DNA of 50,306 nucleotides, from positions 1 to 50,306 of the IMG/VR virus record IMGVR_UViG_3300042558_002832; one strand, written 5' to 3'. Source of the stretch: a virus. The position numbers and the translations under genes are program-made. Shown here one piece after another: positions 14,236 to 50,000 of this stretch. How positions within the stretch are numbered: the stretch's first letter is position 1; the number at the start of each line of letters is the position of its first letter. The notes beneath the pieces are model-generated. The model had not been told where the DNA came from, made no database searches, and worked only from the letters and a program-made list of their open reading frames with translations.

Positions 14236-14257
14236 AATATGATTGTTTAATTATTAT

Positions 14258-14316: not shown

Positions 14317-14319
14317 AAA

Positions 14320-15556: not shown

Positions 15557-15576
15557 ATTATGTTTATTAAATTTAT

Positions 15577-15635
15577 AGTATAAAAATAATAAAAAAGATT
15601 GGTAAAGTAAAATTTTTGTTCAAAAAGTTATTAAC
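15577..15635 (-). promoter_or_regulatory. Two-block intergenic module B (putative promoter)
   Basis: Block 1 AATTGTTAATAACTTTTTG and block 2 TTATTTTTATACTATAAATT (extending to about 15571) on the transcribed strand, 36 bases apart. There is no hairpin in the spacer; it contains AAAAATTTTACTTTACCAA, nearly the same as in module A. The module lies between the lipoprotein stop and the next gene. Confidence 0.72.
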
Positions 15636-15639
15636 AATT

Positions 15640-17285: not shown

Positions 17286-17310
17286 GATTTGTATTGTGTA
17301 TTAAATTTAT

Positions 17311-17370
17311 AGTATAAAAATAATAAAAAAAGGGGTAAGTTGTATCAACTCACCCCAAAAAGTTATTAAC
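17311..17370 (-). promoter_or_regulatory. Two-block intergenic module C (putative promoter with embedded terminator)
   Basis: Block 1 AATTGTTAATAACTTTTTG (transcribed strand) and block 2 TTATTTTTATACTATAAATT (extending to about 17304) are 37 bases apart. The spacer is filled by the hairpin listed at 17325-17356. A stop for the upstream gene and a start for the downstream one lie on either side. Confidence 0.75.
17325..17356 (-). terminator. Rho-independent terminator inside module C
   Basis: Stem 17332-17342 with 17346-17356 (11 positions, one mismatch, 3-base loop), GGGGTGAGTTG on the transcribed strand. It is followed by a run of seven T that merges into block 2. It terminates transcription from the phosphoesterase-like gene. 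Confidence 0.92.
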
Positions 17371-17382
17371 AATTTAATACAA

Positions 17383-18649: not shown

Positions 18650-21600
18650 TAATTAATTTTCTTAAATTCAACATCTAACTTGGAATAATCAACCATATAG
18701 TAACCATTTTCATCTATCAATAAGGCATTTTCAAATTGAGTATCTAATAGATCTTGTGCCATTACACCTTGATATACAATTCCTGGTTTGTTGATGTATT
18801 GATATTCGTAAATAGTTAAACCATAGTTTGATTTTCCTATTTCTTTTATGAACATTTTTAATCGACGGTCTGATGATTTGTTTGCGATTGCGGTTGCTAA
18901 TTCATTTATAACTGAAGGATTCATAGATGTAATGGAAACCTCTCTAGATCCAGCAGGAGCAGGTGTAGATTTACCTCCTTTAGATTTATCATCTTTACCG
19001 CCAGTTCCTTTTCCACCATCTCCTCCAGATCCACCAGATCCAGCAGCAGGAGCGGCAGCAACTGGAGCATTTGCTTTTGCTAGTTCTTTAAGTGCTTCAA
19101 TTAATTCTTTGAAAGACTCTTCAATAGAATTTGTAACCGCTTTAGCAATTGCTTCTGGATTTTTAGAAAGCATTGCAATAGATTTCATCATTGAATCAGT
19201 AAGAGTCAATTTCTTAAGATCCATTCCATTGATGTGTTGTTGCATCAATTTCATAGATTTCTGAATTCTATCGTAATTATTAGCAACTTTATCGAATGCG
19301 GAAGCTTGTTGTCCTACCTTTTCAGAGTTAGTAGCGAATTGAGTAAAGTACCAAGAAGTCATATTCATGTCTTTATTCTTCTTGGGGTCAAATACGTCTT
19401 TTATAGCACCAAAATAATCAGTAATCATTTTAGTAGTTTTATCGGAATCTTTAACTTTTGCCCATACCTCAAGTGGTTTAGCAGCATTAGCAATAACATC
19501 TGTCATTGATGGTAATGTAGAAGTTGCGGATTCTATATAACTACCATTTTCGTCAATCCATTTACCAAAGCTATTCATCTCTCTACCAACAAGACTAATA
19601 ATATCTCCAATAAGTCTACCGGCAGCCATTACCATTGCTTTATTAATCTTTAGTGGCTTTCCAGGTACTAATTTAGCATCTTTAGTTCCGGGATTGATAA
19701 GATCAAATGTTTGAATTTCTCCGGTAGCGAATTTAATAACTGCTTCAGTTATTTTAGCAACAGTATCTCCTAATCCTGCAAGAGCTTCAGTACCTTTTGT
19801 AACGTAACCATCAGAGAACCATCCTTCAGAATTAGCTTCCATTCTACCAACCTCAGCAATACCGTTAACTACAACTCCAAGAATATCCATAATGGTATTT
19901 GCAGCTTTAGTAAGATCAGCGTCAGATACTATTAGAGGTTTAGCAGGTACAAGTTTAGCATCTTTAGTTCCTCCATTTATTAACTCAAATTGAGGAACTT
20001 GGCGATTAGCCATAGATAAAACTGCATCCGTTATGTTCTTAAGATTTTCGCCAACTCCAGCTAAAGCTTGAACTCCTTTTGATACATAACCACCAGAGAA
20101 AAAACCTTCACCGGCAGCTTCTTCTCTACCAATTTTAGCGAATGCCATACCAACTACGCTAATAATAGACGCGATATTTTTACCGGCATTTTCGAGATCA
20201 GCACCTGTTAATTGTTTAACGCCTTTTGGAACTAATTTAGCATCTTTAGTTCCTGCGTTAATTACTTCATATTCAGTAATTCGAAGATTAGCAAAAGCTT
20301 TTACACCATCAGCTAAACCAACTAAAGTACCACCAGCTCTTGATAGCGCATTAATACCAGTTGAAACGAATCCTCCTCCAAATATAGCATCAATTAAAGG
20401 ATTCCCGGACATTCCTGCCTTTTCTTGTCTACCAACATCTGCGAATGGTTTTGATATTGCAGTTATCACTTGAGCCATACCATATGCAGCATTCTCAAAA
20501 TCAGTTTTTGTAAGTTTTCGTTTATTTTTGATTACTAATTTAGCATCTTTAGTACCTGGATTAACTACCTCCCATTCACTAACTTCTAGATTTGCCCAAG
20601 CTTGAACTCCTTCAGCTAATCCAGCAAGTACTCTACCAGCTCCGGAAAGCGATTGAATACCGATCATTAGATCCCATGGGTTAACGTAGAATCCCATTTT
20701 CTTTTGTCGTTCGTAATCAGTTACGATACCAAATGCTCTAACAACCGAACCCATTACATATTCTAGATTGTCTGCATCTGATTTGCCAAATTTTATTTCC
20801 TTGAATCTTTTTAGAGAATGAGATATAGGTAGTAACGCAAGACCGGCGGCTGTCATTACTGCAGCACCGGCAAGAATAAAGAAAGATCCAAATCCGAGAA
20901 GTCCAAATTCAACTCCAATCATCGCAATCGTAGCACCTAGAGTACCAACATCTTCCATTTTAACTTTAGCGGATGTCCATATTTTCAATCCAGTTGCAAT
21001 TAATATAACTGCAACTGAAGCTAAAATTAATGCAACAGATCCAGCCATAATAAATCCAGGTATAGGTCCAAGACCAGCAACTAAACCAATAGCGGCCATT
21101 CCAACAATTGCAACTCCTAGAATAGCAAGATCTTCCCATTTAACTTTTGCACCCATCCAAACGGATAATGCAAATGATAGTATTAATATAGAAAGAGAAG
21201 CAGCAGCTATTGCAAATGCTCCTTTAAGAACATCGGCAAATACTTTACCGGTCAAGTAGAATATGAGAGCTAATGCACCTAAAGTTAATGTAACTAGTAG
21301 CACATCCCATGGAGAAACAGTTCCGGCAAAAGCTTTAACTGCCAATCCAACAAATATCATTCCGAGTACCCAAAGACCCATAACCAGTACGGTTTTAATC
21401 ATTTTACCAACGTTGGAATCCACGAATTTAGAAATTAATATAGCGGTTAGTGCAATGGCTGCTGTAATCGTACTGAATATAATAACATCTAATAAAGCCT
21501 GTATACCAACTCCTCTAGCAAACCAAATTACTAAAGATGATAGGAGTATCAATCCAGTTATTAAAACTAATAGACCCATTACCGATGTTAACTTAACTCT

Positions 21601-25419: not shown

Positions 25420-26298
25420 TTAGAATTTACCTTCGGAATTACGATACTTGGTAGTTAGTTTTGGAACATAAATCATTTGATGGTCGTTCTTCTCATCTTC
25501 AACAACTCGTTTGATTCTTTCTGTATTATCCCAATCTCCAGGAAAACATTCCTTTCTACGAGGGTCTGTTGATTTTTGTTTATCCCAAGTACGGTATTTA
25601 ATGTACTTGAGCGGTTCCATTTTCCAAGTCATAGCAGAGTGACATTGTCCTCCAAGACCTAATGTGTAATTGTTTTCTTCGATTGGAAATTTACCCTTTT
25701 CCGGAAAATACATGTAAGAACCTGCATCTCCTTTAACTCTTTTCTTTCTTGCTTGAGTTAAACAATAGATAACATCAGGGAATTGAGTATATGCTTGTGC
25801 ATGTACTTTAAGATGATCTTTTTGCCATGCATCATCATGATCCAATCGAGAAAAGTATTTAATACCATCTTTTTTCATTTGATCTATGATATGATTTGCT
25901 GCAGTATTACCGCCAGTCAAATGTGGAATAGATCCTTCATATTTGTCACGTTCTCCTGGAGTTTTCATGTTATCCATCCAATACTTGTCTTTAGGAAGAA
26001 TAGATGCAACTAGCTTTTCAATTTCAGGCCATTCATCTTGAGGATATCCATCACCCATAATGTATGCCTTCCATCCAGGAAATGATTGTTCTTTGATTGA
26101 ATTTAGACAATCAGTAAGTACCTTTTCGGTAGTCATGTGATTACCTCTTTTACCACCGTCTATTTTGTAAGTGGTTATACAAACACCAAATTTGATGTCT
26201 TTATTAGGGGTTTCGGTTAATGCAGCTTCGTTTATAGATTGTAGCTGAACGAATTTAGATTGTTCGAATAAAAAATCTTCGTATTTCAAAAATTCCAT
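25420..26298 (-). CDS. Glycosyltransferase (GT2-like) with capsid-targeting-like leader
   Basis: A protein of 292 residues. After about 33 extra N-terminal residues a GT-A domain starts with FGVCITTYKIDGG, followed by AYIMGDGYP, the DxD-type FSRLDHDDAW and a late CFPGDWDNTERIKR. The leader MEFLKYEDFLFE-QSKF has the shape of T4 capsid-targeting peptides (MKTYQEFIAE-A), with L-x-E at the expected prohead protease cut. It may be packaged into the head and injected with DNA; this is inference. A GATAAATA motif lies at 26320-26327. Confidence 0.85.
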   Translation of the reverse strand: MEFLKYEDFLFEQSKFVQLQSINEAALTETPNKDIKFGVCITTYKIDGGKRGNHMTTEKVLTDCLNSIKEQSFPGWKAYIMGDGYPQDEWPEIEKLVASILPKDKYWMDNMKTPGERDKYEGSIPHLTGGNTAANHIIDQMKKDGIKYFSRLDHDDAWQKDHLKVHAQAYTQFPDVIYCLTQARKKRVKGDAGSYMYFPEKGKFPIEENNYTLGLGGQCHSAMTWKMEPLKYIKYRTWDKQKSTDPRRKECFPGDWDNTERIKRVVEDEKNDHQMIYVPKLTTKYRNSEGKF

Positions 26299-26321: not shown

Positions 26322-26939
26322 TTATCTTACTTTTCTTGCAGGAACACCAACATAAGTTCCTGGTTCATTTATATCTTCTATGACTACTGCACCAGCACCA
26401 ACAACAACATCATTACAAATTTTGATATTTGGTAATATAGTTGCACGAGTACCTATTCTACAAGATCCACCAATTTCAGCACCTCCGAGGATTTCAGCTC
26501 CTGGCATGATTTCACAGAAATAACCAATTTTAGCATCATGATGTATTGAGGCAGATGTATTAATTAAACATCCAGCACCTATAACAGCTCCTGGTTCTAT
26601 AATTACATTAGACAAAATAAGATTTCCTGGTAGGATTTCGTTTCTAATATCTTCAAACACGTTTGCATTTTCTGATATAACCGTCATTGGAGTTCCTTCT
26701 ATTTTAATTAATTCAACAAAGAAAAATTCTCTCCATTTTGGGTCTCCTACGCATACCGCAAATGAGAATGGTTCATTTATTTCTTCTAATGAGTTTATAA
26801 CTCTATGTCCATAAAAACTTTCAGGAGCAGTTTCCGTATTATCAAAGAATACTAGGTCATCTAGTGTAGATCGGTTTTTATTTTTAAGATCTACTAACGC
26901 TTGTTTAGCAAGACCTCCAGTTCCAATAATTAATTGCAT
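26322..26939 (-). CDS. Sugar O-/N-acetyltransferase, NeuD/PglD-type left-handed beta-helix
   Basis: Acyltransferase of 205 residues. The N-terminal nucleotide-sugar-binding subdomain opens with LIIGTGGLAKQALVDL. The C-terminal two thirds are hexapeptide repeats (VIIEPGAVIGAGCLINTSAS, EIMPGAEILGGAEIGGSCRI, VVVGAGAVVIEDI) and end GVPARKVR. The catalytic histidine is probably in ASIHHDAKIG. Such enzymes acetylate amino sugars made by aminotransferases like the one at 31294. It is two bases from the topoisomerase gene. Confidence 0.92.
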   Translation of the reverse strand: MQLIIGTGGLAKQALVDLKNKNRSTLDDLVFFDNTETAPESFYGHRVINSLEEINEPFSFAVCVGDPKWREFFFVELIKIEGTPMTVISENANVFEDIRNEILPGNLILSNVIIEPGAVIGAGCLINTSASIHHDAKIGYFCEIMPGAEILGGAEIGGSCRIGTRATILPNIKICNDVVVGAGAVVIEDINEPGTYVGVPARKVR

Positions 26940-30467: not shown

Positions 30468-30498
30468 AGTTTTTTATTTATGTGAGTATTAAATTTAT

Positions 30499-30557
30499 AG
30501 TATAAAAATAATAAAAAAAGCCGAGATTAAAAAATCTCAGCTCATAAAGTTATTAAC
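30499..30557 (-). promoter_or_regulatory. Two-block intergenic module D (putative promoter with embedded terminator)
   Basis: Block 1 AATTGTTAATAACTTTA and block 2 TTATTTTTATACTATAAATT (extending to about 30491), 36 bases apart. The spacer is occupied by the hairpin at 30513-30542. The module separates the methyltransferase unit from the topoisomerase operon. Confidence 0.75.
30513..30542 (-). terminator. Rho-independent terminator inside module D
   Basis: Stem 30519-30528 with 30533-30542 (AGCTGAGATT on the transcribed strand; one U-G wobble), 4-base loop, followed by a run of T that continues into block 2. It ends transcription of the methyltransferase gene. Confidence 0.9.
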
Positions 30558-30568
30558 AATTTTACTTT

Positions 30569-31297
30569 TTATTTCTTCTGAATAATGAATTCATTCAAAT
30601 TTTTCAATCCAAGTTCATCATGTGCTTTAGCTGCATTTTCAAAGTTACCAATAACGTTCCATCCATCGAAAGAACCATCTCCACACATTTCATCAACCGC
30701 TTTTTTCACACCAGGGGAGTCTTTATGATCTTCATAATCATCAAAAACGATGAATCCTCCAGGCTTAACAAGTTCGTTGTAATTTTTAAAGTCCTTCTTA
30801 ACTACTCCATAAGCATGAGATCCATCAATAAATAACATATCAACACCTTCGCCAATAGCCTTTTTAACTGATTCAACCATTTTCTCATCATCAGAGAATC
30901 CAACAAATTTCTTAACTTCTTTACCTTCTTTGATGTAATTTTTGATGTTATTATCGAATTTTTCCTCTTGTTTAGGAATGGCTTTGAAAGGATCTATAGA
31001 ATAGTATTTCTTGGCATTTGGATTTTGTAACATTAAGCACATAGATCCACCGCAATAAGATCCGATTTCCATATAACTTTCAAAGGTCTCTCCGCACATT
31101 TCACCTAATGTATGTAGTACATGTATATGATGATGAAAAGTCTTACCTTCAATACTTTCAGCAATTTCTTTAACCATATCATTGCCTTTTTTATAGCTCG
31201 CGTGATTCAGAATATCTTCTTTGGTATACATTTTAGGACCTGAAGATTTCTTGGATTCGAACAACATCCAATCGTTAAAGTTCAAAATTTTTTTCAT
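30569..31297 (-). CDS. SAM-dependent methyltransferase (type 24) with capsid-targeting-like leader
   Basis: A protein of 242 residues. The methyltransferase core starts with SYMEIGSYCGGSMCLMLQNP (SAM loop), then YYSIDPF, DMLFIDGSHAYGVVKKDFKN and LVKPGGFIVFDDYED. This is typical of the type 24 group that includes macrocin- and CmcI-type sugar or antibiotic O-methyltransferases. The first 15 residues, MKKILNFNDWMLFE-S, form an extra leader ending in L-F-E like that of the glycosyltransferase at 25420, which suggests head packaging (inference). Its start overlaps the aminotransferase stop as ATGA. Confidence 0.87.
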   Translation of the reverse strand: MKKILNFNDWMLFESKKSSGPKMYTKEDILNHASYKKGNDMVKEIAESIEGKTFHHHIHVLHTLGEMCGETFESYMEIGSYCGGSMCLMLQNPNAKKYYSIDPFKAIPKQEEKFDNNIKNYIKEGKEVKKFVGFSDDEKMVESVKKAIGEGVDMLFIDGSHAYGVVKKDFKNYNELVKPGGFIVFDDYEDHKDSPGVKKAVDEMCGDGSFDGWNVIGNFENAAKAHDELGLKNLNEFIIQKK

Positions 31298-32319
31298 TTC
31301 GGAAGTTCATTTATTATTTTTTTGAGTGTAATTTCATCTAATTCTGAATGACATGGAATACAAAGTATTCTTTTATAGAGATCTTTTGCTACTCTCGTTC
31401 CTTTAAGAGGAACATAATACTTTTTAATTTCAGCAGTACTATATTGAGGAATACTAACTGGTTTGTCATAAACTACAGTAAAGCAATTAACAAAGGTATT
31501 GCTAGGATCTGCATAATTTGATAAAGTTTTAAGTCCAGCCTTCTTTATCAATTTTAGGAAAAGCGTATATAGTTTCTTGTGATGATTAACATATCCATCA
31601 AAGTTTCTTTTTACATGTTGGAATATAAAAGCGGCAGAAATATCGGACATTCTAAGATTCGATGCATTACGATTCCAAACTCCCATATCAAAGCCAAAAT
31701 TTAAAGCTTTTCTGATATCATCTTCAAATTCAACATCACATATAATAAGTCCACCTTCACCGAAACCTAAGGGCTTTGTATGATGTAAACTTACAAATGT
31801 GGCGTTTCCGCAATTCAAAGAGTTACGTCCTTTATAAAAAGTCATAGGAACCGTAGCATTATCAAATATAAGTAACTTTCCATTATCAGCAGCCCATTTC
31901 TCGTATTTCTCAATATCACTTACCAATCCAAATAGATTAGTAACTACGATACCATCTTCATTACCTTTTATCGAATTAAGATCAAAAGAAAAATCGTCTG
32001 GAGTTATATCGACTATATGAGTACCTTCAAAAGGTCCTTGAACCGAAGATGGAAAAGAATAGGCTTGAGTTGCCCATTTATGTTTCTTTCCTCTTTTTCG
32101 GTTTATACCATGACCGATAGCATGTAAAGCTGCACTTCCATTACCTGCAAGTATACAAGCTTTATTGGATTCTATTTTAAGTATCTCTCTGAAGTAATCT
32201 TCGAGTTTAGATACTAAAGGACCGAAATTAGTGTAGTGATTTCTGTCCTTAGATTGCTGCAAAAGGTCTTCCACCATCGGGAAGTCTATATCCTTTCTAT
32301 TTAACCAATTGATATACAA
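31294..32319 (-). CDS. DegT/DnrJ/EryC1-type sugar aminotransferase
   Basis: PLP-dependent nucleotide-sugar aminotransferase of about 341 residues. Seen: NHYTNFGPLVSKLEDYF, ACILAGNGSAALHAIGH, the aspartate region LIFDNATVP, and the PLP lysine in SLHHTKPLGFGEGG. It would aminate a keto sugar such as the RmlB product. The start is uncertain: the frame begins with TTG at 32319 (reading MYINWLNRKDI), there is no ATG upstream before an in-frame stop, and the next ATG (32277) would remove 14 residues. TTG is favoured by family alignment from memory. Confidence 0.9.
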   Translation of the reverse strand: MYINWLNRKDIDFPMVEDLLQQSKDRNHYTNFGPLVSKLEDYFREILKIESNKACILAGNGSAALHAIGHGINRKRGKKHKWATQAYSFPSSVQGPFEGTHIVDITPDDFSFDLNSIKGNEDGIVVTNLFGLVSDIEKYEKWAADNGKLLIFDNATVPMTFYKGRNSLNCGNATFVSLHHTKPLGFGEGGLIICDVEFEDDIRKALNFGFDMGVWNRNASNLRMSDISAAFIFQHVKRNFDGYVNHHKKLYTLFLKLIKKAGLKTLSNYADPSNTFVNCFTVVYDKPVSIPQYSTAEIKKYYVPLKGTRVAKDLYKRILCIPCHSELDEITLKKIINELPK

Positions 32320-33323: not shown

Positions 33324-36300
33324 TTATATGAAGTTACCTGTTGCGATAGCTCCAGTTTTTAGAATTGTTGTTCTGTGTACTAGAATACCCATTCCTCTAA
33401 CAGGTTCGATGTAAGTATCTAAGATACCAATATTAGAATCAATTACCTCGTTAGTGTTATTAGTACTATCCATGATGTTTTGGAAGTCGAATACACCTCC
33501 ATCAGAAAGAATCTGAGTTAAGAAGTTATCTGCCAAAGTTTTAATTTCTAAACGATTTTGAGCAGTATTGAATTCCCAACGGTAATTTTTAAGAATAGCT
33601 TCAATTCCATCTTGAATGTAAATTAATAACTCTCTAACGTGAATTTGAGAAAGAGCAGATTTTACATTTTGTTGAGCAGTTTGGTTAGCATTAATAACTA
33701 GTCCAAATCCACGTTTGTTCAAGATTGCATTGTAACCAAATGGTTCGATGAAGTCTAGATCTGTACGATCGAATGCATATTCAACTCCAACAATACCTTG
33801 ACCTGTAACGATACCTCTACGAGGACCAGCTACAATCGAATAAGGAAGAGCTAAATTATATTTGTCGATATACAAGTTAGATATCTGAGCAGCAGGTGGA
33901 ATTGACATATTTCTTCCAGCCTCTCTTATAATTAAGTTAGGACCGTAGAATGCTGAGTAGTTAGCTCCATCTGCAATACCAGGAAGTGTAAACACATTTG
34001 ATGGGTTAAGATCAAGATTACCTCCAGTTGCAATATACTTAGGATCAAAAGATGATGTAGAATCAAATTTGAATAGAGGGTTAACTGAATCTCTGAATTC
34101 TTTCACCGATGGCATATTACAAATTGCTAAAGAAGACATTTGTCGTTTAGCCAAACGAGTTAGACGAATTTTTGAAGCAGGCTCGATTCCACCTTCGAAC
34201 GAATCGACGATGTAACGATATGTGATAACATCTCTATCAGTTAATGTAGCTGCAATGTTTGTATCATACATTACGTCTAGAATTTCATTTTGACGAGTTA
34301 ACGTTCCATCAGGAACTTGAGCAGCTCTTAAAGTATATCCAGAAAGTGCATGAATATGGTAATGATTAACGAAGTTTTCTACTGCTTTATATCTTTCGAT
34401 TTCGTATTTAGCAGTTAAAGAATTGAATCTTAGGAAGATAGGATCGTTAGTAATTACTTTGATTTTTTTGTAATCAACCGATGTAGGATCTTTAATCTCA
34501 GAAACCGTAATGATTTTAGTTAAACGAGATTTTCCAGTTACAGGAGATGTTTCAGTAGCAGCTCCGGTTCCTCCAAAGTTCATTACTAAATAATCACCAA
34601 CTGCAATTTTACCATTGTAATCTCCGTTTGTATTGTCTAACCAAATCGTAGTTACTGGATCTGTATAAGAACCATAAACCTCAAGAGATTCATTGATAGC
34701 TCCGGTAAATGTATTAACCGTATAAGTAGGTTGAATTGCGATTGGAACAGGTAAAGTTAAAGCCTCATCAGAATAAGCATTAACCACTACGTAATTAATT
34801 ACTGATGAGAAGATTGGAGCTTCGGCTCCAAATACGTTTTCATTTGAACATATAGTTCCAATAGCGGTTGTATCGAAATTAGTTTCGTTGAATCTAGAGA
34901 ATTCAGCATAAGCAAAAGCAGTTCCTCCAATAGTAATTCTATCTGCATCAGTAATGATACCTGAAAGATTATCTTGGTACATATCAGATTCAACTAGTGC
35001 GAATACATCGGTTGCATCTCCAAAAGTATGAACTAATGAAGGGATGATAGGTAAAGAAGCAGTTCCGGTAAGTGGACCAGAAACTCCAGATTCGATTACA
35101 TAGAAGCTAGAAGAAGTTGCCGTAGGACCAGTAACTCCTGTATCTGCTTTAAGAGATATTTTAAGAGTTAACGTATCTAAAGCTTCATCATATTTTTCAG
35201 AATTAACTTTTACGAAATTAGCGTATTGAGCCATTCCTACAGTTTCTGCTTTGATGAAAGTTTTGTTAGGAGCAACAGAATTTCTGAAGTCTAAGAAAGA
35301 TTGTGCACTTGGGAATGCACATGTGTAATTTGCTGGTAGTGTAGCAGCAGGACCGTAGATAGTAATTGTATCATAATATCCAGATCCAGGAGCATAACCG
35401 GTAGCTCCGATTAATCCGGAAGAAGCAGTAACTAATGCATTAGCACCAGTTTGTCCAGCAGTTGCAGCGATAACTAAAGAAGTTACTCCTTTAACGGTTG
35501 CATATGGTAATGAATCTACGATAGGACCATAATAAGAAAGGTAATCTAAAGTTGTAGGAGCTTCACTTTCTAATGTGTGACCTACAAGGTCAATTAAATC
35601 TCCTGAAATTTCTCCAGGTTCGTCATCTAATTTATCGTTATCGAATCCTAAAAGTAAACCGGTTTTTGAAGTTTCTAGATTAACTAGATCTTCGATATAC
35701 AAATTAGATCCGTTTTTATCTTGGAATTCCGGAAGTAAAGCTCCAGTATAAACTCCTAATACATTAACAGTATCAAGGTTTAAGAATGATTCAAGACCGT
35801 CTCTTTCAAAACCGTATTGATCTACGTAAGTCTTTTTAAGACCTTGTGCATCGAAATAAGGTCCAAATACAGGATCTATTGCAAGTACTGTGTAATTAGA
35901 AAAATCTCCTTCTACGATGATTAAATCGATCATATAATCACTAATATAATCATTTTCGTTCATGTATTCTGGGATTTGTCCAACTGCAAACCATTCTTTT
36001 GCAAGTATATTAAATCCTAGAATGTCAGATTTTCTTGCAATTACAGAAATAGTTTTTCTACCAACGTTAGCAACGTTAAGTAAACGTTGTTTAGTAACTG
36101 ATTGAGAAGATCCGTTATTTGCATAATCAACTAAAGCATTAGGATCGACAAACCAGAATTTATCTTGGTTAAAGAAACTAGAAACTGGAGAAGATACAGT
36201 TGGTGAGTTAGTCATTGATGCAGAAGTCGAGATAGACTTAAATTGTGATTTGTCTGCATCTGTTAAATTAAGAAGGTTCAATACAATAACCGGACCTCTA

Positions 36301-36551
36301 TCTAGACATGTAAGAACGGTTCTATGAAAATAAGATCCTTTTCTTTCAAGCGCGGTATCAATATCACCAAAAACTGTTCTAAAGAAAGTTGAATCCTGAA
36401 CGAATACTGGAGTATTGAAAGGACCTTTCTTAGAGAATCCGATGATTAATCGAATAGTCTCAGAAGGGATACTGATAATTTGGCTCTTATCAAATTCTAG
36501 ACGATATACGCCAGATGACTTGAATTGTTGTAAACTTGGTGAAAGTGCCAT
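33324..36551 (-). CDS. Tail sheath protein (gp18-like)
   Basis: Contractile sheath subunit of 1075 residues; T4 gp18 has 659. The N-terminus MALSPSLQQFKSSGVYRLEF and IPSETIRLIIGFSKKGPFNT matches gp18-like proteins. The conserved C-terminal domain includes PPAAQISNLYIDKYNLALPY, GYNAILNKRGFGLVINANQT and HVRELLIYIQDGIEAILKNY. The additional length lies in the middle (about residues 290-690, Gly/Thr/Ala-rich), probably surface-exposed domains. It is followed by tube and preceded by terminase, the T4 order. The leader has GATATATAC before an A-rich stretch. Confidence 0.95.
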   Translation of the reverse strand: MALSPSLQQFKSSGVYRLEFDKSQIISIPSETIRLIIGFSKKGPFNTPVFVQDSTFFRTVFGDIDTALERKGSYFHRTVLTCLDRGPVIVLNLLNLTDADKSQFKSISTSASMTNSPTVSSPVSSFFNQDKFWFVDPNALVDYANNGSSQSVTKQRLLNVANVGRKTISVIARKSDILGFNILAKEWFAVGQIPEYMNENDYISDYMIDLIIVEGDFSNYTVLAIDPVFGPYFDAQGLKKTYVDQYGFERDGLESFLNLDTVNVLGVYTGALLPEFQDKNGSNLYIEDLVNLETSKTGLLLGFDNDKLDDEPGEISGDLIDLVGHTLESEAPTTLDYLSYYGPIVDSLPYATVKGVTSLVIAATAGQTGANALVTASSGLIGATGYAPGSGYYDTITIYGPAATLPANYTCAFPSAQSFLDFRNSVAPNKTFIKAETVGMAQYANFVKVNSEKYDEALDTLTLKISLKADTGVTGPTATSSSFYVIESGVSGPLTGTASLPIIPSLVHTFGDATDVFALVESDMYQDNLSGIITDADRITIGGTAFAYAEFSRFNETNFDTTAIGTICSNENVFGAEAPIFSSVINYVVVNAYSDEALTLPVPIAIQPTYTVNTFTGAINESLEVYGSYTDPVTTIWLDNTNGDYNGKIAVGDYLVMNFGGTGAATETSPVTGKSRLTKIITVSEIKDPTSVDYKKIKVITNDPIFLRFNSLTAKYEIERYKAVENFVNHYHIHALSGYTLRAAQVPDGTLTRQNEILDVMYDTNIAATLTDRDVITYRYIVDSFEGGIEPASKIRLTRLAKRQMSSLAICNMPSVKEFRDSVNPLFKFDSTSSFDPKYIATGGNLDLNPSNVFTLPGIADGANYSAFYGPNLIIREAGRNMSIPPAAQISNLYIDKYNLALPYSIVAGPRRGIVTGQGIVGVEYAFDRTDLDFIEPFGYNAILNKRGFGLVINANQTAQQNVKSALSQIHVRELLIYIQDGIEAILKNYRWEFNTAQNRLEIKTLADNFLTQILSDGGVFDFQNIMDSTNNTNEVIDSNIGILDTYIEPVRGMGILVHRTTILKTGAIATGNFI

Positions 36552-36602: not shown

Positions 36603-38393
36603 TTAGAAGAAATCATAGTTTCCATCATCCCTATCTGTGCTTTCTAACACTTCGTCGATGGCTTTTTGGTAAAGAGGATCAATAAAATCATAATACTCTT
36701 CAATAATTTCCATAAAATCTAACGTATCAAAGAATGAAGAACTGTTGATTATAGTCATCATAATATCGTCGTTTCCTGTCTGTGCTGAATAGGTTCCATT
36801 AGGATTTCTTGAGAATAGCTCGGCTTCTTGTATAGATCGTTTCTCTTTAACGATTATTCTTCCTTGAGATATTAACTTTTTAGCTTTCTCGCAATAAAGC
36901 TTTTTGGAATCTTTTTGAATTCGCAATCCAGGATTCTTGGTTTTAGCACCAACTCTGTGATAGTATCTAACAATAACTTCTTCATCGAAATCATTGCTTG
37001 ACGGATATAAAGTGACCATGTTTTTTAGAAGATGAGATCCGTATGTATTGTATTCAACAATCAATCGAAGGTTTTCTTGATTAAAAACATCAACTGTTAA
37101 CGAATAAAGTATTTTAGAAACATCATCTATGTTATGTAAATTAGAACGGAATATGCCAACTTGTTCAATTCCGAAAAAATCAGATATTGAGCTCGGAGAG
37201 GTTACTTTTTTGATTTCATCTTCTGATAGGCAATTCACTTGGAATATATTGAAAACCGTATAATCTCGTCCGATACCTTCGGAAAGATCTATTGTCATTA
37301 CAAAGAAATTTTCTTCGTTGTTGATATCAGCAATATCAAATTCAGGATCCCATCGTAAACCAGAATAGTCAATACAAATATCATCTAGTGGATCGATTTC
37401 TCTAAATTCAAAATCTCTTTCAAATCTCTTAAGTCTTAGTAACTCTTCTGATGAAAGGAGCAACGAAGATGATGATAAGAATTGACATCCGTATTGTTGA
37501 TTGAAGGCTTCTTCTGATCCTAAATTGGCTATCTCTCGAGCCTTCCAATCTTCATCTCTTCCGGGAACTTCCCACCAATCTACTCGGATTGCAGTGTACT
37601 CATTCATATTACTTATAGCTCCTTCATACAAATCATGGAATAGGTCATATCCATTAGGTGTACTTGTTATGATAACTCGAGAGATCGTAGATGATGAAAG
37701 CGTAGGATAAACGTTCTCATAAAAAGGACGCTTAATACTTTCCATAATATGAGCAAACTCATCCAGGAATAATAAGTGAATGGTAAAACCGATACCTCCA
37801 GTCTTGGTTGTGTTTTGACCAATGATTCGACATTTATTATCGAACATCATAGTCATAACGTCTTTCTTAATTACGCCTGGCTTAAGAAAGAATGGAAGAC
37901 CTTCAACAATTGCTTTGATTTTATCCATAATTTCCTTTGTAGTAGCTCCTTTGTTGGACATAAGGAGTACATTTTTATCAAAGTGAAATAGTAGATACCA
38001 AGTTAAAAAGATAGATGAAGTGATAGTCTTACCAATTTGTCGAGGAGCTAAAAAGATATTCCATCGATTGTCTTGGTATGATCTAAGAACCTTTTCTTGA
38101 TATGGTCTTAATTTGATCTTCATGTAACCTTCATCGGTCATTACTTGACAATACTTATTGGCAAAATGCACAATATCTTTTGCACATTTTTTTAGTTCTT
38201 CAAATTCTTCGTCTGTATATTCGAAAGTGATATTTCCTTTTCGATAATCAGGATTTCCCTCGTAAAATGGATGTTCGGCTGTATTGTAACCTTCTTCCAT
38301 TGCAGCCAGCAATTTGTCTACTTTTTCAGTAGTCCATATCAGACGATCATCGCTTTCAGAAGGTTCTTTGTATTCTTTTACGGTAAATGACAT
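36603..38393 (-). CDS. Terminase large subunit (gp17-like)
   Basis: DNA-packaging motor and headful nuclease, 596 residues (T4 gp17 610). ATPase: NIFLAPRQIGKTITSSIFLT (Walker A, near residues 116-135), HLLFLDEFAHI (Walker B), RVIITSTPNG (motif III-like). Nuclease: FFVMTIDLSEGIGRDYTVFN (first acidic residue), IVEYNTYG and a late DDIMM. It uses pac/headful-type packaging as in T4 relatives. The sheath gene follows directly, but the candidate small terminase is 5.5 kb upstream, separated by sugar genes. Confidence 0.97.
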   Translation of the reverse strand: MSFTVKEYKEPSESDDRLIWTTEKVDKLLAAMEEGYNTAEHPFYEGNPDYRKGNITFEYTDEEFEELKKCAKDIVHFANKYCQVMTDEGYMKIKLRPYQEKVLRSYQDNRWNIFLAPRQIGKTITSSIFLTWYLLFHFDKNVLLMSNKGATTKEIMDKIKAIVEGLPFFLKPGVIKKDVMTMMFDNKCRIIGQNTTKTGGIGFTIHLLFLDEFAHIMESIKRPFYENVYPTLSSSTISRVIITSTPNGYDLFHDLYEGAISNMNEYTAIRVDWWEVPGRDEDWKAREIANLGSEEAFNQQYGCQFLSSSSLLLSSEELLRLKRFERDFEFREIDPLDDICIDYSGLRWDPEFDIADINNEENFFVMTIDLSEGIGRDYTVFNIFQVNCLSEDEIKKVTSPSSISDFFGIEQVGIFRSNLHNIDDVSKILYSLTVDVFNQENLRLIVEYNTYGSHLLKNMVTLYPSSNDFDEEVIVRYYHRVGAKTKNPGLRIQKDSKKLYCEKAKKLISQGRIIVKEKRSIQEAELFSRNPNGTYSAQTGNDDIMMTIINSSSFFDTLDFMEIIEEYYDFIDPLYQKAIDEVLESTDRDDGNYDFF

Positions 38394-38394
38394 A

Positions 38395-39336
38395 TCATTT
38401 TCTTTTTTGTTCCATAAACCAATCTATAGTCATTTTTAGACCTGGTTCTAATTCTATTGATGGAATGTACCCAAATGATTTTGAGTTATTTATATCAGCT
38501 AAAGAATTCTGAATTTCTCCTTTTCTTGGAGATTCGTAAATAGGTTCAATATCAGAATTTAGACTGTCTTTGATTATTCTATAAAGTTCGTTAACGGATG
38601 TAGTTTTTCCCATTGCTACATTAAAAATAAATGATCCATTTTCATTTACATTTTTAATCAAATGTATGTTAAAATCAACAACATTTTTTACATGAGTAAA
38701 ATCTCTAGATTGAGTTCCATCTCCATATATGATTGGAGACTCGCCATCAACAATAGATTTTATGAATTTTGGAATAACCGCAGAGTATTCTGAATCCCAT
38801 TTTTGATTTTCTCCAAATACGTTAAAGTATCGCAATCCATAAAAATTGATTCCATATATCTCATTTGACTGTCTAGCTATCATCTCATCCATTCGCTTAC
38901 TTAGAGCATAAGGAGAAAGAGGTTTTCCGATAACCGTTTCTTTTTTGTATTCAGCCGGATCGTCTCCATATACAGAAGATGAACTTGCATATATGATTTT
39001 TTTGATGTTGTTATTTTTTGCAGCTTCAACGATATTCATAAAGCCACATACATTATTTAACATGTAATCTTTTGGAATTTCCATAGATTTTGGAACAGAT
39101 CCCCATGCTGCTTGATGACATATAACGTCAATTCTTTCGCAAATTTCATTTACTAACTCAAAGTCACATATATCTCCTCTCATTAAAAAAATCTTGTCCG
39201 ACTTTACTAGGTTTTTAGGATCTCCATTTACCAGGTTGTCAATTATGAAGATTCTTGTAATTTCTGGATCTTCACATAATTTGTTAGCTATATTAGATCC
39301 GATGAATCCAGCACCTCCGGTTATTAGTACATTCAT
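38395..39336 (-). CDS. NAD-dependent nucleotide-sugar epimerase
   Basis: Extended SDR protein of 313 residues. LITGGAGFIGSNIANKL, HQAAWGSVP, ASSSSVYGDD, the YALSK catalytic pair, GLRYFNVFGENQ and SRDFTHVKNVVDF are the motif set of UDP-glucose/UDP-GlcNAc 4-epimerases (GalE/WbpP type). The exact sugar is not readable. It starts in an ATGA overlap with the upstream glycosyltransferase. It is part of the glycan block between the candidate terminase genes. Confidence 0.93.
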   Translation of the reverse strand: MNVLITGGAGFIGSNIANKLCEDPEITRIFIIDNLVNGDPKNLVKSDKIFLMRGDICDFELVNEICERIDVICHQAAWGSVPKSMEIPKDYMLNNVCGFMNIVEAAKNNNIKKIIYASSSSVYGDDPAEYKKETVIGKPLSPYALSKRMDEMIARQSNEIYGINFYGLRYFNVFGENQKWDSEYSAVIPKFIKSIVDGESPIIYGDGTQSRDFTHVKNVVDFNIHLIKNVNENGSFIFNVAMGKTTSVNELYRIIKDSLNSDIEPIYESPRKGEIQNSLADINNSKSFGYIPSIELEPGLKMTIDWFMEQKRK

Positions 39337-39956
39337 ATTTTATTTATTTCGTTAACAATTTCGTATTCGATATTCCAATCAGTATTGCATAGAGGGTCAC
39401 TTAAAAAAATTTCTCTATTTTTTGATGTATCTCTATTTATATGTTTAGTAGAGAAAGCTGGATCAACTTCTAATTTTATAGGAGCAATTTCAAATGAATA
39501 ACCTAATCTTTTTGCTCTTCTAATGAAATCAATATCGGACATTCCATAATTGCCACTATAAATGGTATTCCATCCTCCTATTTTTATATAGTCTTCTTTT
39601 CTTATTAGGATGTGTGAAGGATTTGGTAGTAATTGCTTATCTCCACAAACTCTATTAAAGTGAAAAATTGTTTTGTCCGGGATATCTATTTTAGAAATTT
39701 CTGAATAATCTGCTCGATGATCTAAATCAAATCTCAATATAACATCTCCTTTACATTTAAGAACTCCAAGGTTAACTGCATCCGAATTGAATAACAAATC
39801 TTCTTTTATTCTGTAGACATTTGCCCAATCTATCTTTAGAGGAGAAGGACTACAATCGTCAACTACTACTAGGTCTAAATCGCAAGATCTCAAATTAGAT
39901 TCTTGCCACATTAATGCATCGTATGAATTGTAGTAACAAGTGGATAGGCTTAACAT
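39333..39956 (-). CDS. Glycosyltransferase, GT2-like
   Basis: A protein of 207 residues. MLSLSTCYYNSYDALMWQES opens a GT-A fold, LDLVVVDDCSPSP is the nucleotide-binding motif, VILRFDLDHRADY has the DxD metal site, and KIGGWNTIYSGNYGMSDIDF carries the acceptor-side acidic motif. It is shorter than ordinary GT2 enzymes, with little after the catalytic domain. It is four bases from the 1059-residue multi-domain glycosyltransferase and probably extends the same glycan. Confidence 0.87.
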   Translation of the reverse strand: MLSLSTCYYNSYDALMWQESNLRSCDLDLVVVDDCSPSPLKIDWANVYRIKEDLLFNSDAVNLGVLKCKGDVILRFDLDHRADYSEISKIDIPDKTIFHFNRVCGDKQLLPNPSHILIRKEDYIKIGGWNTIYSGNYGMSDIDFIRRAKRLGYSFEIAPIKLEVDPAFSTKHINRDTSKNREIFLSDPLCNTDWNIEYEIVNEINKI

Positions 39957-39960
39957 AAAT

Positions 39961-42900
39961 CTAGATATGATTTTGTATTGAATCTGCGTTCATGTATTCT
40001 TTTTCTTTTATGACGTTACTATATCCAGCACTATCACCGTAATGAAGACATTTTAGTTCTCCATCGGAATATCCAATCCAAAATTCAGCTTCATGTCTAT
40101 CTCCAATTCTTATTCTATCGATATCCGGCAAAGACTTTATATAGCTTGATTTTGACCACCAAAAATTGCCAGAAAAATGTTTTGGATTCCTTTTGTACCT
40201 GGATTTGTATTCTGATGTTGACCACCAGAATTTGTCGGTTGATCCCGATACACTCTCCATTGATGAAGGAGTCTCTCGTATTTTAACACCAACTGCATCA
40301 TATCCGTCTTTTAATGATTCAATACAAGAAGAATAATCATCTATCAAATAATGCTCCATGTATCTTCTCCAAGCCCTTATAGGTTCTATTCTACGAGCAT
40401 CTTTAATTTTACTAACTCCTTTGGTATGTAGGTAGTAACAATAAAACTCGTCTTTTGATGCCATCTCTTTAATCTGATTTAAGATTCCAAACTCATACTC
40501 ATTCTGATTAGTTAGGTGGATCCTTATATCGACATTGAAATTCTTTTTATATGAATCGATAATTTTATTAAAATCCTCTAGGTCTGAATCTACTTTGTAA
40601 TAGACTCTTAAGAATAAAACATTGGTATCTTTCATTAAGTTAGAATTGAACAATCTTTCCATTTGCTCAACGACTATAGATTTCCAATCATTAATGAGAG
40701 CTACAAAATAGAACCCGTATATTCGCATACCTTTCACCGATATATCTTCTTTTTGACTACGGTAACCCAAATCAAGGTAATTTTTTATGATTCTTTTCAA
40801 AGAGGTCTTTTCTTTGATCTCTTTCATTTTTTTCAATGCTATATTCCATTCAGCTTTACCAAATGTACTATAAATCTTTTTTATGACATTATCCACCGAT
40901 TCATCATTAGGATCGCAATAGTAAGGATAATCACTTCCTAGCATTTCTATGTTATGAGCACTTCTATTAGCGATTACTGGACATCCAAGAGACGCTGCAG
41001 TTGATATCTTAGTCAATGGTTGTATCTTATCATCTTCGCCCTTTGGTTTGACGGCGTAGTGAACGTTGTAGTGTTCATAAAGACTTATCTTCTCATCAAA
41101 GTCATACCAATCTATGCTGTGTCTTTCTATATTAGAGTTTTTACCATAACACTTCTCTGGTTGACCTATATAGCATATTCTAGGAGAAGAAATTCCATCG
41201 TGTATGCTTATATTACTAAATCTTTCATCCCAATGATGGTATATGACTTTACACTTCTCGGGACTTTTGAATATGTGTCTCAATTCCTCCATCTGTCTAA
41301 CCGAGGTGAATATACCATAGTCAAATGATTTGAATGTATTGAGATTATGTTTAGATTGGTCAAAATCTACCATATCACATATGACTTCGTTAAATTCGGT
41401 CAGCGGTAAAGCTTTTTCATAATTTGACATCTTTAGGAGCACAATTTTCTTGTACTTTATCTTATTAGATTCATTAAAAGAAACGATATTACATCCGATT
41501 TTTTCTGATATGTCCCTACCTCTCATTTTCGTAGATCCCCAATTACCTCTACCTTCATCGTATACGAAGCATAAGTTGTTATTGAATACTCGACTTTTCT
41601 TATGAGGAGTAGGTATGTAATTTCCTCTTTTGTCGGTATCTACTTTGATGAGAATACTCTTTCGTCTATCTTCTATCTTGAAAGTTCCTATAGAAACTCC
41701 AGCTTTACTAATTGAATACGGAAAAGCAATCTGATCTCTGCTCGAGTACCTCAATATCTCTTCCCACCATATGTTATTGAAGTTTTGTACTCGTTTAGTA
41801 TTTTTTCTTAACATCAAACCACATTCATAAAGTCCCGAACCAATGCCAAATTTTCGGTATTTCTCTAGCTGATCGGAAATTCGAGATTCGCTATCTAGTT
41901 TAGATTCTATACATTGAGCTCCCTCTTCATAAATGGAATTTCTCTTATGATGTCGGAAAACCAAGATCTCCTTTTTAGACTCTACTATCTCGCCTACTAT
42001 TTTGTTAGGATCTTCGGTTAACATCATATTAGCATCGATGTGTAAAGAGTAGTCATGATTAGGAAGTAATTCATGTGGATGCGTTCTTATATACTTGCAT
42101 ATAAGTTTTGTATTCTTTAGCTTAGTTATGTGAGGAAACTTACTTATGTTTATTACTTCCCATCCGTCAATCTCAATATCTCTATCTAAGAAAGCTATAC
42201 ATTTCGTGTTATCAAATTTTTTCGTTGGACGTAAATTGTCGTAATCTCCTATATTTTCAGTAAAGACTACGATTCTAGGTGATTTGTTGAAAACCACACT
42301 AAAATCTTCTGATATCGTTGATTGTGAATTTCTAAAAAAACGTCTACTTTTTGACATTCTTCCGTGATCTTCTTTGTATCTTCTAACATAGGCAAATCTA
42401 TCTGAACTAGGAACCGAAATAGTTAGATTTTTACGATCTACATAATAGCAATTAGAAAGAATTTTACCTGTTTTCATAGAAGCCTCGGATCCAAAACATA
42501 AAGTAAACCTATTAAAGTATTCACTATCTCCTCCATATCTGGTATCATCATAATATCCTAATATGTCAAAAACTTCTCTTTTGTATAGAGTCGTATTTTC
42601 GCAAAATGAATATGTGCTAACTACCTTTTTTGTATTAAAATCAACTCGGTTGTATCCACAAGAAACACCTTTTGTATTGACATCTAAATCAAAAAATCCT
42701 AATTGAAATTCTAATTTATCTGGTAGCATTAAATCATCGGAATCATGAATACAAAAATAATCAAATCCTAGGTCAGATCCGAAATAAAGACCTATGTTAA
42801 TTGATCGATAAGTTCCTAAATTTTTATTGTTTTTTAGTACTTTTACACGAGTATCTTTTATAGAATTAAGAATTTCATATGTTCTATCTGTGCTGCAATC

Positions 42901-43140
42901 ATCGACAACAACTACCAAGAGATCTTGATATGTTTGATTTAGAACTGAATTTACTGAATCTAATATAGTCTTTTCTGAATTATAAGTCGGAATAATAACC
43001 AACACTTTACCTATGTTTATTGAATAACTAGTAATCTCTTCTTTAATCTCTTCTTTAATATCAATCTTCGGTCTTTTGAAATTAATGCCATGATTTTGTT
43101 TCTTACTCCAACCATGAACCTTTTTTAATTTACTACTCAT
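39961..43140 (-). CDS. Multi-domain glycosyltransferase (four candidate domains)
   Basis: 1059 residues. Domain 1 (about 45-265) is GT2: VLVIIPTYNSEKTILDSVNS, VVVVDDCSTD, FCIHDSDDL. Domain 2 (about 285-500) resembles the DUF616/TOD1 type: IVVFTENIGDYDNLRP, YSLHIDANMM, RHHKRNSIYEE. Domain 3 (about 535-810) looks like a GT-B part: WGSTKMRGRDI, RICYIGQPEKCYGKN, LTKISTAASLGCPVIANRSA. Domain 4 (about 815-1059) has CYYLHTKGVSKIKDARRIEP, WRRYMEHYLIDDY and FSGNFWWSKSSYI, as in HTKG-type glycosyltransferases. It might build a whole oligosaccharide alone. It overlaps the deacetylase gene as ATGA. Confidence 0.9.
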   Translation of the reverse strand: MSSKLKKVHGWSKKQNHGINFKRPKIDIKEEIKEEITSYSINIGKVLVIIPTYNSEKTILDSVNSVLNQTYQDLLVVVVDDCSTDRTYEILNSIKDTRVKVLKNNKNLGTYRSINIGLYFGSDLGFDYFCIHDSDDLMLPDKLEFQLGFFDLDVNTKGVSCGYNRVDFNTKKVVSTYSFCENTTLYKREVFDILGYYDDTRYGGDSEYFNRFTLCFGSEASMKTGKILSNCYYVDRKNLTISVPSSDRFAYVRRYKEDHGRMSKSRRFFRNSQSTISEDFSVVFNKSPRIVVFTENIGDYDNLRPTKKFDNTKCIAFLDRDIEIDGWEVINISKFPHITKLKNTKLICKYIRTHPHELLPNHDYSLHIDANMMLTEDPNKIVGEIVESKKEILVFRHHKRNSIYEEGAQCIESKLDSESRISDQLEKYRKFGIGSGLYECGLMLRKNTKRVQNFNNIWWEEILRYSSRDQIAFPYSISKAGVSIGTFKIEDRRKSILIKVDTDKRGNYIPTPHKKSRVFNNNLCFVYDEGRGNWGSTKMRGRDISEKIGCNIVSFNESNKIKYKKIVLLKMSNYEKALPLTEFNEVICDMVDFDQSKHNLNTFKSFDYGIFTSVRQMEELRHIFKSPEKCKVIYHHWDERFSNISIHDGISSPRICYIGQPEKCYGKNSNIERHSIDWYDFDEKISLYEHYNVHYAVKPKGEDDKIQPLTKISTAASLGCPVIANRSAHNIEMLGSDYPYYCDPNDESVDNVIKKIYSTFGKAEWNIALKKMKEIKEKTSLKRIIKNYLDLGYRSQKEDISVKGMRIYGFYFVALINDWKSIVVEQMERLFNSNLMKDTNVLFLRVYYKVDSDLEDFNKIIDSYKKNFNVDIRIHLTNQNEYEFGILNQIKEMASKDEFYCYYLHTKGVSKIKDARRIEPIRAWRRYMEHYLIDDYSSCIESLKDGYDAVGVKIRETPSSMESVSGSTDKFWWSTSEYKSRYKRNPKHFSGNFWWSKSSYIKSLPDIDRIRIGDRHEAEFWIGYSDGELKCLHYGDSAGYSNVIKEKEYMNADSIQNHI

Positions 43141-43775
43141 AATCTAGTAAAGTTCAGTTTTAATTTTTTTGCTCTATTTATTATTTGCTTAATTGCATCA
43201 AGAGTTTCGAATCCGAGTCCGTTAGTATGTAAAAGATATACATCTCCTCCTTTCATGAATTTAAGTATGTTTGCAATCGCTCTATCTCTTGATTCTTCTT
43301 TAGGTCCTAACTTACCTTTAAATCGATCAAGAACTTTTCCAGTCCATGCTAAAAACTCAATTCCTTTTGAATTGAGGTATTTAATTGAGTAATCAGTAAA
43401 AGCTCCATGAGGAAATCGATAATACTCTACCTTTATGTCAAATGTAGATTCTAAGTAAGTTATGGTATCATCTATTTCTTTTCTTTGATCTTCTTCTGAA
43501 AGATTCAATATATTGACATGATGATTTCCATGAGCTTGTATAGAAAAAAGTGGATTTTTAAAGACAGTAAGATCTTTGTCTTTATTTTCTTTACACCACT
43601 CAACGTTAAGCATAAAGGTTGCAGGTATTCTATTTTCTATCAACCAATTAATGATCTCTAGGTCTAAATCATGAGATGGACACATATCAAATGTCAAATG
43701 GAGATGAGTATCTCCAACTGACTTAATTGCTCTAGGATCTAGTTCTTTTTCTAAATGCCTAAGCGGATTTTTCAT
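43137..43775 (-). CDS. Polysaccharide deacetylase (NodB-like, CE4)
   Basis: Hydrolyses N- or O-acetyl groups of glycans such as GlcNAc polymers. Motifs: TFDMCPSH (normally TFDDGP; the second Asp is Met), IQAHGNHHVN (metal histidines), YYRFPHGAFT, and LLHTNG at the end. It has no signal peptide, so would act in the cytoplasm or after lysis. The frame opens at 43862 (MDLMRTAITNKK), but the ATG at 43775 (MKNPLRHLEKEL) avoids overlap with the small ORF 43795-43971 and has an AT-rich leader. Both remain possible. Confidence 0.85.
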   Translation of the reverse strand: MKNPLRHLEKELDPRAIKSVGDTHLHLTFDMCPSHDLDLEIINWLIENRIPATFMLNVEWCKENKDKDLTVFKNPLFSIQAHGNHHVNILNLSEEDQRKEIDDTITYLESTFDIKVEYYRFPHGAFTDYSIKYLNSKGIEFLAWTGKVLDRFKGKLGPKEESRDRAIANILKFMKGGDVYLLHTNGLGFETLDAIKQIINRAKKLKLNFTRL

Positions 43776-43794
43776 GATAAAATCATGATATTTA

Positions 43795-43971
43795 CTAAAG
43801 GTCCCTCTCTTGATGTCTTGTATCATTTTCTTGTTGGTAATCGCAGTCCTCATCAAATCCATATTCGTCTTTGTTATCGTTCCATTGAGGAACTGAAGGA
43901 GGTTTGTCTTTTTTAGATGTTTGTTTGTTCGTCGGAGTCGAAATCGGTTGGGTCTGATTTTGTTTCTTCAT
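43795..43971 (-). CDS. Small hydrophilic ORF between candidate small terminase and deacetylase
   Basis: A 58-residue frame starting MKKQNQTQPISTPTNKQTSK, then proline/aspartate-rich, ending TRHQERDL. It overlaps the end of the candidate small terminase gene by 59 bases. It fills the only gap between the two genes and has ordinary codons for this genome. It is probably disordered. No family is recognised. The deacetylase start at 43862 would conflict with it. Confidence 0.48.
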   Translation of the reverse strand: MKKQNQTQPISTPTNKQTSKKDKPPSVPQWNDNKDEYGFDEDCDYQQENDTRHQERDL

Positions 43972-44539
43972 TACCTAATTCTTCTTGTATTTCTTTCATT
44001 AAGTTTCTTGTTCCGCGATTAACGTTACCAATAGCTTTAGGTTTAATTTCTATTGCTTGAGAATCTGAATAAATGTCAATATCTCTTTTGAGCTTTTTCA
44101 TGTTCTCTTCGGCAGCCATCATATGAAGTGTTTGATGCTTCATAATATCCAACATAGTCTTTTGTAGGCCTCCAAGAACCTCAAACATACGAGGAGATAC
44201 TTCACCGGCATCAATACTTCGCATTAAAGTGGTTATTGCATGTTCAGCAGTCTGCATCTGAAATATCAGGTTAGACATCGTCATTACATCAATTTTTGCC
44301 TTTAATTGAATGTACTCATTCTTTTGTATAAGTTCTTCTGATAGATAGAACTTTAAAAGAGAGTTCATTAATTTTCTAGCGCTGTTTGTAGAGGTATCTT
44401 TAACCACCGCGTAGTTCATAGGTTCATGTTCGCTAAAAGTCGGTAGACCTCCACCAGTAGTTGCCGGTAGGTCATCTTTTAATAAATCATCTATTGATCT
44501 ACGGATTGGGCTTTCCTCGTTATTCTTTTCGTTCTCCAT
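43913..44539 (-). CDS. Candidate small terminase subunit (gp16-like)
   Basis: A protein of 208 residues. Flexible N-terminus (RRSIDDLLKDDLPATTGGGL), a helical core from LMNSLLKFYLSEELIQKNEY through FQMQTAEHAITTLMRSIDAG to EENMKKLKRDIDIYS, and an acidic tail. The all-helical core with central coiled coil is the build of T4 gp16, and the gene lies upstream of terminase, sheath and tube as in T4. No sequence motif proves the call. GATAAATAA and CATATAA motifs lie in the leader (44545-44561), which suggests its own late promoter. Confidence 0.6.
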   Translation of the reverse strand: MENEKNNEESPIRRSIDDLLKDDLPATTGGGLPTFSEHEPMNYAVVKDTSTNSARKLMNSLLKFYLSEELIQKNEYIQLKAKIDVMTMSNLIFQMQTAEHAITTLMRSIDAGEVSPRMFEVLGGLQKTMLDIMKHQTLHMMAAEENMKKLKRDIDIYSDSQAIEIKPKAIGNVNRGTRNLMKEIQEELGNEETKSDPTDFDSDEQTNI

Positions 44540-49621: not shown

Positions 49622-49874
49622 TTAGTTAAGACAGATTTTTGAAATCATTTCACGAATTGGTTCTTTTTTGAGATAATCAAATAGCTCTTGATAAGACATA
49701 ATCTCGATATCAGACATGTAGTTTTCATCCCAAACTTCGTAATGTTCAGGTTTTGTTTGACATTCTAGAATTGAGATTATTGAACCATCCTTTCGAGTAT
49801 GGATGTAATTAGTTGCATACATTAAGAAAGGATTTTCTGTGACTGCAAAGTCGATTGGGAATTGTATTGACATA
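49622..49874 (-). CDS. Small hypothetical protein, first gene behind module E
   Basis: An 83-residue protein: MSIQFPIDFAVTENPFLMYA, then IHTRKDGSIISILECQTKPE and IMSYQELFDYLKKEPI. No family is recognised. The longer frame start at 49915 would run through block 2 of module E and the terminator, so the ATG at 49874 is taken as the start. It leads the operon that includes the nuclease. Confidence 0.75.
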
Positions 49875-49889
49875 TTTATTAATTTTATA

Positions 49890-49947
49890 GTATAAAAATA
49901 ATAAAAAAAAGCCACAAGAAAAAATCCTGTGGCTAAAAGTTATTAAC
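49890..49947 (-). promoter_or_regulatory. Two-block intergenic module E (putative promoter with embedded terminator)
   Basis: Block 1 AATTGTTAATAACTTTTA and block 2 TTATTTTTATACTATAAAA (transcribed strand), 35 bases apart, with the hairpin at 49904-49934 in the spacer. It separates the acidic small gene from the nuclease operon. Confidence 0.75.
49904..49934 (-). terminator. Rho-independent terminator inside module E
   Basis: Stem 49911-49920 with 49925-49934 (AGCCACAGGA on the transcribed strand, one U-G wobble), 4-base loop, followed by a T run that leads straight into block 2. Confidence 0.9.
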
Positions 49948-50000
49948 AATTTGTATTTAGTAATTAATCTAAATTAAGAGACTCATTAGTAAATGATTTT

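Follow-up and report, generated by a model that had tools for sequence, protein, structure and literature searches.

A predicted four-domain glycosyltransferase chain in a variable slot between two packaging genes of a phage

A 50,306-base virus record of IMG/VR (the window, i.e. the whole stretch of DNA analyzed) encodes on its minus strand, as for all window features given below, a single chain of 1059 residues (39961–43140) in which GT2, TOD1-like, GT-B-like and HTKG domains follow one another, and whose gene is the longest in a cassette between two packaging genes, a point absent from the initial annotation. We propose, at a probability of about 0.5, that the chain is a soluble protein whose four glycosyltransferase domains would each add one sugar in turn to yield a short oligosaccharide, most likely on a virion protein. 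The gene is confirmed as real, intact and unusual: the frame of 1059 codons runs without interruption, and 11,387 bp including it recur with 0 mismatches in a second IMG/VR record (IMGVR_UViG_3300044732_002489), so that the frame is not an assembly joint of the window record. That it is a phage gene is likewise borne out, since a T4-like sheath, a terminase and a gp23-type capsid gene surround it. The initial annotation had described one chain with these four parts, and its labels and boundaries are essentially right, the third domain being the least certain; the domain-by-domain HMM and structure check that it called for places three domains confidently in glycosyltransferase folds and the fourth (GT-B) probably. 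No candidate membrane segment was found in the chain, the top 19-residue hydropathy mean being 1.0.

The chain opens with a basic leader (+5; residues 1–44, 43009–43140) without a known domain, which aligns in part with the leader of a sister allele, L236. The GT2 domain that follows (GT-A; residues 45–285, 42286–43008) matches PF00535 at 8.4e-26, with 91.3 bits against a cut-off of 23.3, and carries a DXD within HDSDD (residues 132–136) and GGDSEY at 203; its nearest solved sequence is heparosan synthase B (phmmer, 2.3e-21). The second domain (residues 286–512, 41605–42285) belongs to TOD1/MUCI70, formerly DUF616 (PF04765 8.6e-20; 71.7 bits, cut-off 21.4), and retains the family-invariant residues D369, within HIDAN, and R468–Q470, which form the RDQ at 468–470. 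Because a local MAFFT alignment of the whole chain misplaced single-domain relatives, the domains were folded apart, and the AlphaFold2 model of the TOD1 domain, folded with 42 phage relatives, reached a pLDDT of 90.1. Its structural neighbours are GT-A enzymes (Z 11–12.7), in agreement with a predicted GT-A fold, headed by LARGE1 (Z 12.7, rmsd 4.1, 200 aligned) and followed by 2p73, a glycosyltransferase of PBCV-1 capsid glycosylation (Z 12.1, rmsd 3.3, 167 aligned), with blood-group and alpha-1,3-galactosyltransferases at Z 11–12; neighbours within 1 Z unit count as tied, and many other GT-A enzymes tie with 2p73. A GT2 gene followed by a TOD1 gene was considered as a general phage order and rejected, as only 11 of the 48 upstream neighbours of TOD1 genes had a GT2 match and the others include epimerases, dehydrogenases and oxygenases, so that GT2 adjacency is common, not a rule.

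Residues 513–805 (40726–41604) likely adopt a GT-B fold with a GT4-type signal. This region has no Pfam match, and searches of viral contigs, genome contigs, INPHARED phages and PDB sequences returned no relative other than the phage's own second copy; 395 genomes from the phylum of a Prevotella relative gave marginal matches only, two of the three best being GT4 proteins. A 66-row GT4 profile matches the region weakly and collinearly at 602–647 (the end of the N-terminal half) and 715–790 (the GCPVIA region), with hhalign probabilities of 38 and 69 against ≤1.4 for the controls (eight shuffles and three other domains, all <1.5%). This profile alone gave a signal, and none was obtained by hhalign with the small alignments of GT4, GT9, GT10 and L236 GT-B domains. 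Compared by eye with the GT4 proteins of L285 and L287, the EX7E motif seems to have Thr in place of its first Glu, and the second is present in AHNIE. The model of the region (pLDDT about 30) is unreliable for lack of relatives.

The HTKG domain (residues 806–1059, 39964–40725) has no Pfam model, in the chain or in 39 relatives, and its structural model, most of which has pLDDT >90, confidently adopts a GT-A fold. The model's neighbours are GT-A enzymes, of which heparosan synthase 2 is the best (Z 13.4, rmsd 3.8, 179 aligned), with hyaluronan synthases and LH3 also among them. In a profile–profile comparison by hhalign the domain aligned over 160 columns with the C-terminal half of RgpF (probability 92.7, E 4.2e-7; ≤1.1 for the GT2, TOD1 and GT-B controls), HTKG/HTKK, WR and GNFWW/GTxFW being brought into register, whereas neither the whole chain nor 40 HTKG-containing members matched PF05045 (RgpF) at E≤1. 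HTKG is thus a distant relative of RgpF, not a member of PF05045, and RgpF differs further in its N-terminal domains, the chain moreover being a phage protein. Some Pfam models (Mre11 cap, LPD11 and others) hit between one and three HTKG members at E 0.005 to 1, and these hits were taken as chance. The HTKG motif occupies the position where GT-A enzymes usually have their DXD, and the family-invariant residues H905, K907, G908, W924, R925, G991–W995 and E1019 are retained. Relatives were found as 468 stretches in viral contigs and at 28 loci in bacterial genomes, and this unclassified family, which numbers several hundred proteins of phages and bacteria, lacks a Pfam model and is linked to RgpF, deserves further attention, as do the exact architecture of the chain and its accessory slot.

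Since HTKG stands in place of DXD, and apparently Thr in place of the first EX7E Glu, one or two of the domains may be non-catalytic. This is taken further in the improbable reading that the chain is a recent pile-up of domains, of which just one or two would be catalytic, above all GT2, and the others scaffold or decaying; it fits with a textbook DXD being kept by the GT2 domain only, among the four, with the absence of DXD from HTKG and with the GT-B domain being an orphan in viral and genome contigs. However, all four regions are open, TOD1 and HTKG keep their family-invariant residues, and the relatives of HTKG are widespread and conserved despite the missing DXD. If, as we prefer, all four domains act, four unlike domains suggest sequential transfer of one sugar each; the processive assembly envisaged in the initial annotation is unsupported, as no sign of processivity is seen here.

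Chloroviruses provide the best-documented multi-domain glycosyltransferase chains, and the present chain is a variant within the multi-domain viral glycosyltransferases, with a fused-chain organization of a kind already known. No other chain with the same domain order was found in the collections searched (loci fetched for HTKG and TOD1), nor any close relative of the full chain, and the HTKG and TOD1 relatives at the fetched loci are nearly all single-domain genes. The combination had been described as unrecognized from other systems, which holds for the exact order in these collections; as regards fused chains as such it was overstated, given HTKG fusions in bacteria and another phage, chains of sister phages at the same site and the three-domain glycosyltransferases of PBCV-1. 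Phage L072 encodes a GT4-HTKG-GT9 fusion, bacterial L190 and L185 have GT10, HTKG, then GT2 and TPR-like repeats, plus GT25, L194 is built likewise without a GT25 match, and L174 and L187 are GT10-HTKG. A GT-B-type domain stands immediately before HTKG in L072, L190, L194, L174 and L187, as in the chain. Most of the bacterial proteins share this succession with the chain, and the long ones GT2 as well, but their order is another one, with GT10 instead of a GT4-like domain and no TOD1, and they come from bacterial MAGs and are uncharacterized. L190, L185 and L194 are single-chain proteins of about 1400–1850 aa.

PBCV-1 A111/114R has three glycosyltransferase domains and builds the capsid N-glycan (PMC7826918). 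Like A111/114R and A064R, which glycosylate capsid protein, the phage protein joins several glycosyltransferase domains of ~200–300 residues in one virus-encoded chain, and among solved folds the PBCV-1 capsid-glycosylation enzyme 2p73 is one of the closest to its TOD1 domain. By contrast, the PBCV-1 proteins belong to a eukaryotic algal virus and have three domains and an established acceptor.

The gene lies in an operon-like arrangement. The slot is bounded upstream by a conserved 208-aa gene (43913–44539), which abuts TerL directly in most relatives and, judged from position only, is probably the small terminase. A polysaccharide deacetylase (43137–43862; PF01522 4.6e-20), present in the same slot of many sister phages, overlaps the start of the chain by 4 bases, and 4 bases after the chain there is a small GT2/GT7C-like glycosyltransferase (39333–39956; PF02709 5e-5, PF10111 2.3e-5). 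It is followed by an NAD-dependent, TviC/GalE-like nucleotide-sugar epimerase (38395–39336; PF01370 6.7e-57, phrog_540), whose best NCBIfam is TviC, under its cut-off. The terminase large subunit (36603–38393; PF03237 1.8e-18, phrog_5989 2e-53) forms the downstream boundary, after which the same run continues with the tail sheath (33324–36551; phrog_34521 5.9e-136). Across the stretch from the deacetylase to TerL, neighbouring genes overlap by 4 bases or stand 1–4 bases apart, and the starts of the cassette genes have no clear Shine-Dalgarno sequences.

In most distant relatives the 208-aa gene and TerL abut or overlap, so that the inserts of the slot are accessory. The slot was compared across 58 newly fetched loci that carry both bounding genes, some of them on near-duplicate contigs. 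It held no gene of at least 60 codons at 32, the deacetylase alone at 18, the deacetylase with an unknown gene at one and other unknown genes at three, while glycosyltransferase chains were present on four contigs (the chain, L236, L239 and L253); a further set of loci gave the same pattern. L236 (GT2-GT-B-GT4, 939 aa) and L239/L253 (GT2-GT25, 532 aa), from two other lineages, share the genomic slot with the chain, but have other C-terminal domains, with neither TOD1 nor HTKG. L236 is 45% identical to the chain over 248 residues, which take in the GT2 domain and some of the leader, and the leaders of L236 and L239 are 61% identical over 59 aa, with different domains behind; this common leader was not found on other proteins. 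Exchange of domains at a single site would be expected to leave such a pattern, a common leader or GT2 domain with differing domains behind it. We tentatively suggest that the slot could be a glycan-specificity cassette, in which a lineage swaps whole glycosyltransferase domains so that the swap of one protein gives a different virion oligosaccharide, and in which HTKG would represent a widespread, unclassified family of DXD-less GT-A enzymes. In a sister phage (L263, 2771–3643) a 290-aa protein, GIY-YIG endonuclease-like by eye, adjoins the 208-aa gene, which suggests that mobile genes also enter the slot region.

To our knowledge, few phages glycosylate their own particles. The placement among packaging and tail genes together with the PBCV-1 precedent favours a virion protein as the acceptor, although a late-gene position is no proof of a virion target, and the GT-B assignment comes from weak profile matches. 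We infer that the chain would be made together with the packaging and tail proteins, and that each domain would add its sugar sequentially, with the adjacent epimerase providing a nucleotide sugar, the small glycosyltransferase contributing a further sugar, and the deacetylase trimming the product by taking an acetyl group off an N-acetylated sugar after addition. As the content of the slot varies among sister phages, the glycan probably varies too, as expected of a surface coat under selection. A different target is conceivable but rather unlikely, namely the host surface polysaccharide or lipid-linked glycans, which the chain would modify late in infection, e.g. to block superinfection or to keep progeny from re-adsorbing to debris. 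Phage GT2s of the GtrB type alter host surface glycans, and a phrog_841 match was found. The TviC-like epimerase and the polysaccharide deacetylase alongside the chain would also suit such a role, as would the nearest named relative of HTKG, RgpF, which builds cell-wall rhamnan (PMC9746298). Against it stand the chain's lack of a membrane segment, the placement in a late operon and the genes scanned, among which no flippase, polymerase or lipid-carrier glycosyltransferase was recognized.

Less likely still, the oligosaccharide would be put on phage DNA bases as an anti-restriction modification. DNA-glycosylating phage glycosyltransferases exist (cited in PMC12619734). The coupling of the chain gene to the packaging terminase would fit with this role, and a second thymidylate-synthase-family gene in some sister phages keeps it in consideration. 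However, the thymidylate synthase of the window has a PFN motif, which we take to mark an ordinary dUMP enzyme, not a dCMP hydroxymethylase, and thus lends no support to hydroxymethylcytosine; no base hydroxymethylase was recognized in the incomplete genome, and DNA sugar-modification genes are normally early. The four-domain chain in its exchangeable slot of the packaging operon offers a small system in which glycans made by a virus can be put to the test.

Relatives of the large terminase with 63–89% identity lie on contigs of up to 294 kb, and the records nearest by terminase (33–43%) comprise uncultured huge phages together with Tenacibaculum phage PTm1 and Sphingomonas phage PAU. An overlapping contig adds the gp23-type capsid gene just upstream and a gp44-type clamp loader, and together with the lack of clear Shine-Dalgarno sequences these features suggest that the phage is a T4-like jumbo phage infecting a member of the Bacteroidota. 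Further sugar genes of the window, which speak for the proposed glycan assembly, encode a GT2 (25420–26298), a hexapeptide acyltransferase (26322–26939), a TylF/CmcI-type methyltransferase (30569–31297) and a DegT aminotransferase (31294–32319), the product of which could be a methylated or acylated amino sugar. An intergenic unit occurs in five minus-strand copies (14229–14318, 15551–15646, 17292–17375, 30479–30567 and 49872–49959) and consists of a fixed motif, TTGTTAATAACTTT, in several copies a variable hairpin with a T-run after it, and then a largely fixed ATTTTTATACTATAAATTTAATA block. The unit resembles a terminator with a T4-late-like promoter behind it, and the glycan genes are flanked by its copies at 49.9 kb and 30.5 kb. 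An Rfam scan of the window gave no match. Elsewhere in the window are a nucleotidyltransferase of the poly(A) polymerase head domain/CCA-adding type (16277–17014; PF01743, 6.8e-20) and a fibre-like protein of 1694 aa (18649–23733), which contains internal repeats and matches an S74 chaperone weakly at its C terminus, and upstream of the window the overlapping contig encodes a RimK-like ATP-grasp protein (L359, 3682–5175). In three contigs (L261 2887–5380, L268 1550–4313 and L296 5861–10353) the large terminase genes are split by long inserts that are intein-like by eye.
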